40,611 nucleotides of DNA from Bacteroidota bacterium (lineage in GTDB: Bacteria > Bacteroidota > Bacteroidia > UBA7662 > JAIXUI01), in contig JAIXUI010000106.1 of the NCBI GenBank assembly GCA_027484125.1, positions 1 to 40,611 on the forward strand, written 5' to 3'. Of this stretch, positions 8,404 through 40,611 are shown in pieces. Within the stretch, counting starts at the first letter, position 1. Each line of letters starts with the position of its first letter. The notes below the pieces were generated by a model. The model did no database searches and was not told the DNA's origin. It worked only from the letters and a program-made list of their open reading frames with translations. The translations under genes were made by a program, and so were the position numbers.

Positions 8404-8477
8404 GGTCCGGTAGTTCAGTTGGTTAGAATACATGCCTGTCACGCATGGGGTCGCGGGTTCGAGTCCCGTCCGGACCG
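8404..8477 (+). tRNA. tRNA-Asp (anticodon GTC)
   Basis: A 74-base cloverleaf: acceptor GGTCCGG pairs with CCGGACC, anticodon stem CATGC/GCATG encloses the loop CTGTCAC with anticodon GTC, and the T arm contains GGTTCGAGTCCC. The discriminator base is G, as expected for tRNA-Asp. The CCA end is not encoded. It has its own promoter (8352-8381) and a terminator two bases later, so it is a single-gene unit. Confidence 0.97.
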
Positions 8478-17677: not shown

Positions 17678-17750
17678 GGTGATATAGCTCAGTTGGTAGA
17701 GCAAAGGACTGAAAATCCTTGTGTCGTTGGTTCGATTCCGACTATCACCA
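17678..17750 (+). tRNA. tRNA-Phe (anticodon GAA)
   Basis: A 73-base cloverleaf: acceptor GGTGATA pairs with TATCACC, D arm GCTCAGTTGGTAGAGC, anticodon stem AAGGA/TCCTT around the loop CTGAAAA (anticodon GAA), T arm GGTTCGATTCC, discriminator A. The CCA is not encoded. It is a single-gene unit with a promoter before it and a terminator 11 bases after it. Confidence 0.97.
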
Positions 17751-38783: not shown

Positions 38784-39461
38784 ATGTCACAGTCTGATCC
38801 TATCTGGCACCTTCTGGGCCTCCGTTACAAATCTCACCCTTGGCATGGTGTTTCTCCAGGTGATAACCTTCCGGAGGAAGTTACTTCTTTCATAGAAATT
38901 GTACCTTCTGACACCATCAAATACGAAATCGACAAAACCACCGGTTATCTGATGATTGACCGGCCTCAAAAATTCTCCAACATCATCCCAGCGTTGTATG
39001 GGTTTGTTCCAAAAACTTACTGCGCAGAATCGGTTGCTTCCTTTTGTATGGAGAAGACCGGCCTTTCGGACATTAAAGGCGATGGTGATCCGTTGGATAT
39101 CTGCGTACTCACCGAACGCATCGTGTCGCATGGCGATATATTGGTATCTGCTGTGCCTATTGGTGGCTTCCGAATGATTGACTCCGGCGAAGCTGACGAT
39201 AAAATTATTGCGGTGTTGAAAGGCGATTCTTTGTACGAGCAATACAAGGATGTGAGCGAGGTACCTTCGGCGGTGATTAAACGGTTAGAGCACTACTTCC
39301 TCACCTACAAGCAAAAACCGGGAGAGGCAGTGAAAAAGATTGAAATCACGCATACTTACGGCAGAGAAGAGGCCTATGAGGTAATCCGGAGGTCAATTGC
39401 TGACTACGACAAACGCTTCGGACATTTGGAGCAGTTGCTATCAGCGGCGTTACGTGGGTAA
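38784..39461 (+). CDS. ppa: Inorganic pyrophosphatase, family I
   Basis: A 225-residue soluble enzyme that hydrolyses pyrophosphate to drive biosynthesis. Conserved pieces are SFIEIVPSDTIKYEIDKTTGYLMIDRP, the metal-binding signature GDGDPLDICVL, then SAVPIGGFRMIDSGEADDKIIAVL and the closing Lys/Glu helices. It is longer than E. coli Ppa (about 175), with extra residues at both ends, as usual for this phylum. It starts 10 bp after prc and ends at a strong terminator 17 bp downstream. Confidence 0.95.
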   Translation: MSQSDPIWHLLGLRYKSHPWHGVSPGDNLPEEVTSFIEIVPSDTIKYEIDKTTGYLMIDRPQKFSNIIPALYGFVPKTYCAESVASFCMEKTGLSDIKGDGDPLDICVLTERIVSHGDILVSAVPIGGFRMIDSGEADDKIIAVLKGDSLYEQYKDVSEVPSAVIKRLEHYFLTYKQKPGEAVKKIEITHTYGREEAYEVIRRSIADYDKRFGHLEQLLSAALRG

Positions 39462-39478: not shown

Positions 39479-39512
39479 CAACAAAAAAGGGCCTTACGGC
39501 CCTTTTTTGTTG
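39479..39512. terminator. Strong terminator after ppa
   Basis: A 15-bp perfect stem CAACAAAAAAGGGCC (39479-39493) and GGCCCTTTTTTGTTG (39498-39512) with a TTAC loop. A-tract and T-tract are symmetrical, so it can act on both strands. Confidence 0.88.
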
Positions 39513-39740
39513 GGCGGAGCTGCTGATGAGCCACATGCGTGAGGGACCCGTGGGCGCGCTTGCGCGGTGTGGCAGGGCGGCCGGTAATGGTTAGTGATGA
39601 ATGACTAAAGATGAATGCCGAAAAGCTGGTGACGCCGCCCTGACGCACGGAACCCCAACGGCGGCCCGACCCCGGCCACGAAGCTGTTTTGTTGACTCGG
39701 AGTTGCGCCGTAGGGAATGCAAAGACTGGCCGGGGGCACG
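39513..39740. other. GC-rich, strongly self-complementary gene-free segment
   Basis: No credible gene. Composition is clearly richer in G and C than the flanking genes. Paired arms: CAGGGCGGC (39573-39581) with GCCGCCCTG (39634-39642); CCGTG (39548-39552) with CACGG (39646-39650) and GGG (39543-39545) with CCC (39653-39655) outside it; GCGC-GCTT-GCGC hairpin (39554-39565) inside it; and CCCCGGCCA (39670-39678) with TGGCCGGGG (39727-39735). Together they suggest a branched structure, as in a non-coding RNA or a non-autonomous repeat element. Terminators flank it on both sides (39479-39512 and 39750-39782). Confidence 0.5.
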
Positions 39741-39749
39741 CCCAAAAAA

Positions 39750-39782
39750 AAGGAAGCATCAACCTGAGGCTCATGCTTCCTT
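39750..39782. terminator. Terminator before the right-edge cargo gene
   Basis: A 10-bp stem AAGGAAGCAT (39750-39759) and ATGCTTCCTT (39773-39782) with a 13-base loop. A run of A precedes it and T-rich sequence follows, so it can end transcripts of the reverse-strand gene (stop near 39841) or of the GC-rich segment on the forward strand. Confidence 0.7.
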
Positions 39783-39840: not shown

Positions 39841-40611
39841 TTAAGGAACCACTACCAAACTTTGGCGGGTAAATGCCTGTCCTTGTTTTAGAATCACCTG
39901 ATAAATGCCGGGAGCCATTTCCGGGAGGCTGGTAATTCCGATGCCGGAATCTTCGTCCATGGCATAAAAGGTATTGGACCAAATCACCCTTCCCTGCATG
40001 TCCATAACGGAAGCTAAGAGCGGCGCTTGCGTTAATGTTCCTTTTTCAAAAGACATACTCACCGGCTGATGTGCTTTTACGGGGTTCGGATATAGTTTAA
40101 ATCCGCCTAAGGTGAGGCTGCTTACGCCCACTGTACTGCCCAAAACGAAGCAGTTGGTGTCGTTGGCGGCGTTGGAATCGGCAGGCATGTTGGCCCAAAC
40201 ACAGAAATTAGAACCGGAAGGCAGTCCGATGGGGCTAAGTGGCACATTGAAAGTGAAAAGCAAAGAGTCGCCCGGGTTAATGGGGTTTCCAGTATAAATC
40301 TGGGTGACCGGATTTCGAGCGCCGGCCCGGTAACCGATGGTAAAGCCGGAAGCTTGGGTATTGCCGAGGTTTTTCAGCCAAATGCTAACAGGCGTATTCC
40401 CTACGGGCATCACGCCAGCCTGAGGCGAAGTGACCAATGGTACGCTTAAATCGTTAACGGAAATTCGTTCTACATCCAATCCCATGAGGAAATCTTCCTG
40501 ATCTCTGGCTCGGTAATCGGCCCAAATTCCACCTAAGATTTCATAAGTACGACCTGAAATGGGCGAGGTAGTATCTCTCGCGAGGGTGATGTTGGCGCCT
40601 CGCATGTCCCA
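39841..40611 (-). CDS. Secreted protein with T9SS sorting domain, 5' part outside window
   Basis: An open frame of 256 residues that continues past the right edge; an ATG ending at 40605 is in frame, but the codons before it are also open, and no signal peptide is present, so the true start is probably outside. The visible part has a CARDB-like beta-sandwich (about 45-150, with SPQAGVMPVGNTPVSIWLKNLGN and NPGDSLLFTFNVPLSPIG) and then a type A sorting domain: GGFKLYPNPVKAHQPVSMSF, LLASVMDMQGRVIWSNTF, MAPGIYQVILKQGQAFTRQSLVVVP. This is the standard end of a T9SS-exported surface or extracellular protein. The function of its N-terminal domains is unknown. Confidence 0.85.
   Translation of the reverse strand, partial: WDMRGANITLARDTTSPISGRTYEILGGIWADYRARDQEDFLMGLDVERISVNDLSVPLVTSPQAGVMPVGNTPVSIWLKNLGNTQASGFTIGYRAGARNPVTQIYTGNPINPGDSLLFTFNVPLSPIGLPSGSNFCVWANMPADSNAANDTNCFVLGSTVGVSSLTLGGFKLYPNPVKAHQPVSMSFEKGTLTQAPLLASVMDMQGRVIWSNTFYAMDEDSGIGITSLPEMAPGIYQVILKQGQAFTRQSLVVVP

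Follow-up and report, generated by a model that had tools for sequence, protein, structure and literature searches.

The locus

The window analysed here is a stretch of 40,611 nucleotides from a Bacteroidota bacterium. Near its right end, an inorganic pyrophosphatase gene on the plus strand faces a minus-strand ORF that has no Pfam match and gives the impression of a secreted protein (Table 1). An earlier note, made from the sequence alone, had drawn attention to the segment between them, 39513–39740, as GC-rich, structured and devoid of a credible gene. The observation is real. The G+C content is 0.60–0.64 across the segment in steps of 100 bases and 0.37–0.57 in the other steps between 38000 and 40600. 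The ORFs in the segment are mechanical, and copies of the element described below range in length from 126 to 214 bases. Both proposed 9-bp pairings are read directly from the sequence, CAGGGCGGC at 39573–39581 being the perfect complement of GCCGCCCTG at 39634–39642, and CCCCGGCCA that of TGGCCGGGG; the nested GCGC hairpin and the outer stem are present as well. The limits, however, had to be moved: the true unit is the repeat of Table 1 plus an A-run up to 39751, and 39513–39536 lie outside it.

The segment had also been described as insulated by terminators. Terminator-like hairpins do flank it at this site. A consensus terminator scan returned a weaker piece of the right hairpin only and did not list the left one. 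The only Rfam matches of the window at the gathering threshold are two tRNA genes (8404–8477 and 17678–17750).

Table 1. Features at and around the structured repeat (positions in the window)
Feature	Position	Strand	Remarks
Inorganic pyrophosphatase gene, left neighbour	38784–39461	+	Pfam PF00719
Terminator-like flank, perfect inverted repeat with A/T tails, after the pyrophosphatase gene	39480–39511	.	outside the repeat; sequence read directly
Complete structured repeat (copy of subfamily B, a label coined here)	39537–39745	+	BLAST, model R1, own-genome copies
P1 5' arm GCGTG	39537–39541	+	pairs with 39737–39741; compensated, GCGTT/AACGC in C153 and GCCTG/CAGGC in C130
P2 5' arm GGG	39543–39545	+	pairs with 39665–39667; GGT/ACC in C57 and C153, GTG/CAC in C157
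P3 5' arm CCGT	39548–39551	+	pairs with 39658–39661; weakest helix, 62.5% of cells paired
P4 5' arm GGG	39552–39554	+	pairs with 39653–39655; invariant
P5 short hairpin (the GCGC hairpin)	39555–39566	+	2 of 5 pairs changed on both sides
P6 5' arm (includes 39573–39581)	39567–39581	+	8 of 12 counted pairs changed on both sides
P6 3' arm (includes 39634–39642)	39634–39648	+	arm swap, covariation
P4 3' arm CCC	39653–39655	+	invariant
P3 3' arm ACGG	39658–39661	+	covariation table
P2 3' arm CCC	39665–39667	+	covariation
P7 5' arm CCCCGGCCA	39670–39678	+	all five inner pairs counted changed on both sides
P7 3' arm TGGCCGGGG	39727–39735	+	arm swap, covariation
P1 3' arm CACGC	39737–39741	+	unconstrained fold, covariation
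Terminator-like flank, hairpin with A-run, towards the minus-strand gene	39744–39782	.	sequence read directly
ORF, right neighbour	39841–40611	–	no Pfam match

Copies in the genome of the window

A BLAST search of the segment against its own genome (G000) gave further copies, and a covariance model built from ten copies identified 12 full copies. They have common ends and a seven-helix fold. The 5' start is GCGTGAG in ten of them and GCGTTAG or GCCTGAG in the other two, in which the 3' ends are changed to match. The own-genome covariance model (R1) scores the window copy at 91 bits, this copy itself being included in the model. A short BLAST match in apparent coding sequence (contig C13) was excluded. 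The analyses of context, strand, likeness and 3' flank hairpins described below used 9 of the 12 full copies as the own-genome set. Plain BLAST of the segment against the genomes of 39 relatives at E 0.001 gave no match outside its own genome.

Half copies, which were left out of the pair counts, were found at the end of contig C161 and at the start of C106; both contigs terminate in the same half copy, and the assembly is broken within the repeat.

Fold and compensatory changes

Helix P1 closes the ends of the element. P2, P3 and P4 connect to a junction from which the short hairpin P5 and the long hairpin P6 branch; GACC and hairpin P7 follow. The earlier note had considered a multi-branch fold plausible; an unconstrained prediction for 39537–39747 matches the helices that are supported by covariation. 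Pair-keeping changes on both sides were found in 22 of 40 pairs among the 12 copies, compared with 11.5 ± 1.9 in shuffles, and none of 500 shuffles was as high, so that the pairs do covary. A version with ten copies gave 20 of 40 pairs (shuffle mean 9.0; again none of 500 reached it). A shift of the partners lowers pairing in the 12 copies from 89% to 33–51%. When arms were exchanged among copies, pairing fell from 0.949 with the true partner to 0.694 for P6 (nine own-genome copies) and from 0.978 to 0.733 for P7 (ten own-genome copies), a difference reached in 0 of 5000 trials in either case. P4 gives no covariation evidence for or against because it is invariant, and P3 requires a shift of one base to pair in some copies. 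The P1 variant GCGTT/AACGC recurs in two Bacteroides plasmid copies.

The covariation counts for the window's genome were obtained with hand-cut pieces; raw MAFFT columns of the full copies are misaligned in the stems. Automatic parsing of P7 set a wrong register in the runs of the own-genome, G036 and three other sets, with mostly non-significant outcomes. In one such run, the flavo, gc and G056+G066 sets gave 0 of 5000 with 17 of 37, 41 of 75 and 13 of 31 copies dropped, respectively.

Relatives and their distribution

The exact 12-base sequence GGGCACGCCCAA occurs 57 times in genome G036, 35 times in G056 and 11 times in G000, and its reversed-pattern control is absent from each. Counts in the other 57 genomes scanned range from 0 to 5, some of the matches lying in coding sequence, and five genomes of one genus, each more than 90% complete, have 35, 3, 0, 0 and 0; such short-pattern counts vary with the subfamily. 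A canonical form, GCGTGAGGGATNGNAGCGGAAAGCCC, was found at 80 loci or more in genome contigs, which are taken as Bacteroidota from the titles of the matches listed. These canonical relatives have G-N-A / G-N-A internal loops, and the base of their P7 is mainly A/G, G/A or A/T (17, 6 and 3 of 29 copies). A second covariance model (R2), built from 29 canonical copies, matched under strict filters 15 of 24 genomes of class Bacteroidia and 1 of 75 from other classes. Its whole-genome search of G000 gave no match, which places G000 among the nine matchless Bacteroidia genomes.

R1 recovers 11 of 15 loci from other genomes at E ≤ 0.01 (best 1.8e-4), and R2 recovers 3 of the 12 own-genome copies at E ≤ 0.01 (best 3.1e-4) and 8 at E ≤ 1, missing four even at that value; the window copy scores 15.9 bits with R2 (E 0.33). 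An intermediate locus, L174, is detected by both models (E 2e-5 with R1 and 1.4e-4 with R2). Cross-detection being partial, the kinship is therefore based on the common ends, on R1 and on the intermediates L174, L046 and C130. The wider superfamily, defined here as GCGTGAGGG...GACC-P7-GGGGCACGCCCAAA, is held together by common ends, P1, P2, P7 and reciprocal model detection.

The element extends to plasmids. Matches at E 0.01 were found in 84 plasmid records: 59 from Bacteroides, 12 from Phocaeicola, 11 from Parabacteroides and one each from Butyricimonas and Moraxella. Between p5482 and pMMCAT_BxylCL11T00-2 the element and about 112 bases downstream of it are 94% identical, the sequences to the left differ and the junction coincides with the 5' end of the element; this single case presents a boundary and not an empty site, and is no proof of mechanism. 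The coding sequence of a LuxR-type protein of pMMCAT_BxylCL11T00-2 terminates within the element. Near-identical copies (up to 96–97%) have unrelated flanks, and it is from this, together with the patchy copy number, that we infer mobility.

Relation to the Flavo-1 RNA motif

The Flavo-1 RNA motif (Rfam RF01705) was reported by Weinberg et al. 2010 (PMC2864571); the literature consulted here assigns it no function, and Rfam types it as an sRNA gene. Among 16 loci of relatives that were scanned, four exceed the Flavo-1 gathering threshold of 42 bits (L042 with 63, L049 with 54, L063 with 52 and L090 with 43.5 bits), and further loci match below it. The window copy does not match at the gathering threshold or up to E 5, nor do ten other own-genome loci (nine full copies and one half copy) up to E 5, and we therefore place it in a divergent subfamily, B, of a wider Flavo-1-like superfamily. 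Like Flavo-1, which also occurs in Bacteroidetes, the canonical relatives have the core helix GAU-G-AGCGGAAA / AGCGGAWAGC, the 5' half of which belonged to the search pattern; this core is absent from the own-genome copies. Absent in turn from the Rfam model, which has 76 positions, are the closing helix GCGTG/CACGC, the end GACC-P7-GGGGCACGCCCAAA and the P5 and P6 branches. As a whole, the element exceeds the Rfam model of Flavo-1 in size and has several subfamilies. Among the matches listed in a search of open-licence papers, no title or abstract describes the full element.

Genomic context

Copies are mostly intergenic and occur in any orientation. With a simple ORF caller, 66 canonical loci were usable: 14 lie between convergent genes, 14 between divergent and 27 between co-directional ones, one is one-sided and ten fall apparently within an ORF. 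The neighbours examined were the closest ORFs at up to 700 bases from the canonical copies; they were trimmed to 380 residues and limited in total length, and are thus a subset of all neighbours. They comprise 117 proteins with 138 Pfam families, none of which occurs in more than three proteins, and cis-regulation of a gene class was rejected on these grounds. The best 25 of the 138 include no family of transposases, integrases or reverse transcriptases; the remaining families are single-protein matches.

A link of insertion to terminators was likewise rejected, as hairpins are not in consistent excess in the 3' flanks. In the five sets of copies, observed and expected numbers were 0/0.4, 3/2.2, 4/1.2, 3/2.7 and 0/1.3 for stems of at least 8, a test that misses the right hairpin of the window itself because its loop is too long; stems of at least 7 with longer loops gave 5/3.6, 13/8.3, 8/8.2, 14/11.7 and 4/4.7. 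Insulation by terminators, true of this site, is therefore not supported for the family.

Strand preference and persistence at orthologous sites

The folding energy of the window copy is not significant (z −0.32 for 39513–39750, −0.54 for 39537–39747 and −1.14 in a separate script), and z over nine own-genome copies spans +0.73 to −5.92. Judged by z, the better fold is that of the plus strand in 114 of the 159 copies of five sets; three of the 159 are counted twice, and related copies are not independent. By set, the numbers are 28 of 37, 19 of 28, 54 of 73 and 9 of 12, and 4 of 9 in the window's own set. This preference points to a strand-specific single-stranded form, either RNA or DNA.

Four Flavobacterium genomes contain 7, 14, 11 and 9 copies by pattern. 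By their flanks, eleven of the 14 copies of G072 have a counterpart in another species, which for L312 and L337 is recognised from a single flank. Since many copies sit at orthologous sites, movement in Flavobacterium is at best rare. When orthologous sites were compared for target-site duplications, they were filled or could not be aligned, and no clean empty site was obtained. A copy from the same genome was more alike than the ortholog in 22 of 26 orthologous pairs, a number inflated because the most similar of many copies in the genome was taken. Six of the eight short-P7 copies of G072 have a CGC..GCG stem in P7, which none of the 14 in three relatives has (p 0.0004); one of the eight, L337, appears to be a long P7 that was parsed wrongly. 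The likeness of copies within a genome fits concerted evolution. Gene conversion accounts for it equally as well as active copying, and it could also reflect a common mutation bias.

Possible mechanisms and alternative explanations

The segment is one of the dispersed copies of a structured repeat that is non-coding and patchily distributed across the class Bacteroidia. We consider it nearly certain that it is a covarying structured repeat of a superfamily that includes the Flavo-1-like elements. The earlier note had named three candidates, namely a structured RNA, a mobile repeat of the non-autonomous kind and a DNA structure with a regulatory role; the segment did turn out to be repeated and structured, but no regulatory tie to terminators or to particular genes emerged. 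The explanation that we prefer, to which we give an even chance, is a trans-acting, non-autonomous mechanism. The plus strand, when single-stranded as RNA or DNA, would fold, and a trans-acting factor would recognise the folded strand. This factor might spread copies and partly rewrite them, or else the rewriting may be due to gene conversion; the analysis revealed no partner enzyme. The element would then be a passenger, non-autonomous and probably selfish, whose presence between genes is tolerated by host genomes. The ends of IS200/IS605 elements, where a folded single strand is recognised by an enzyme while the letters of the stem vary, may be analogous, and so may the integron attC site, a folded single-strand recombination site; they differ in that no such enzyme or cassette context was found at the copies here.

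A functional structured RNA, whose copies would each give a transcript, either an sRNA or part of an untranslated region, and whose fold would be preserved for the sake of RNA function, is rather unlikely. The strong covariation, the better folding of one strand, the conserved unpaired bases and purine-rich internal loops of the canonical form, the stability at orthologous sites and the typing of Flavo-1 in Rfam all argue for it. However, neither orientation nor neighbour is fixed, the pattern copies number from 0 to 57 among related genomes, and a scan for promoters of the sigma-70-like type gave none at the window copy. In Flavobacterium psychrophilum, moreover, Flavo-1 matches may have either sense with respect to transcribed regions, and many are situated beyond such regions, according to a transcriptome study (PMC9723704).

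The trans-acting explanation can be taken further, though we regard the extension as speculative and rather doubtful. Class-wide, ORF-less selfish elements of Bacteroidia might spread by way of a strand-specific folded single strand of RNA or DNA and, while long fixed at their sites, be rewritten in place by copies of the same genome. This would amount to homing without a linked gene, with Flavo-1 as one branch. In any case, the element is class-wide and includes plasmids of gut Bacteroides, its compensatory evolution is seen within single genomes together with signs of concerted evolution, and whether it acts as RNA or single-stranded DNA, and which factor recognises it, are now directly testable questions.

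That the element is a DNA cruciform, or a site bound by protein, maintained by selection for a role in the host (in the nucleoid, replication or insulation) is improbable. Such a site could well be mostly intergenic, indifferent to orientation and kept at orthologous sites, as the copies are; yet a folding advantage of one strand in most copies is not expected of a cruciform, the association with terminators is not consistent and many near-complete relatives have no match.

An element of the REP type that depends on a REP-associated tyrosine transposase (RAYT/TnpA-REP) for its movement is very improbable. REPs are described as palindromes of 20–40 bp with a GTAG- or CGTC-type tag (PMC3733652), or of up to 65 nt, and Bacteroidetes RAYT genes of subclass 2.6 as flanked by "atypical secondary structures" (PMC6006769). 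The element resembles REPs and BIMEs, as these sources portray them, in being dispersed, mostly extragenic, hairpin-forming and patchy, but with about 70–280 bp and an asymmetric, multi-branch fold it is no short tagged palindrome. A link was suggested by one copy in G034, where a Y1_Tnp gene (PF01797) lies about 180 bases downstream of the element. It was rejected: an R1 or R2 copy was found in just this one of 79 PF01797 loci, which are a subset of all matches to that family and were examined over about 1.5 kb on each side where contigs allow. Further, PF01797 has no match in G036 (57 pattern matches), G035 (5) or G106 (5 R2 matches). Adjacency to RAYT genes is thus largely refuted. The G034 gene (locus L127, RAYT-like) has different, inverted hairpin repeats of its own at 1309–1401 and 1854–1986, and looks like a REPtron unrelated to the element.

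A chance GC-rich island with accidental pairings, with which the z of the window copy (−0.3 to −1.1) would agree, is refuted by the further copies in the genome and by their covariation, and its probability is negligible.

Atypical copies

A few copies deviate from the common pattern. L042 and L060, which lie 9.4 kb apart on one contig (G052:C4), are near-identical with common flanks and form part of a larger duplicated unit. L091 and L103 (G056:C27 and C110), a full copy and one with an internal deletion of 37 bases, are followed by an identical 3' flank, the result of either a duplication or an assembly chimera. The copy near 1375–1430 of L356 (Phocaeicola salanitronis pBACSA01) is shortened, apparently also by internal deletion. 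In G036 (L044, L062, L080 and L086) and in L046 and L106, the variable arms contain other palindrome-like repeats, for example CCCTTCGACAAGCTCAGGG in the G036 copies, which look like foreign hairpins taken up to extend the stems.
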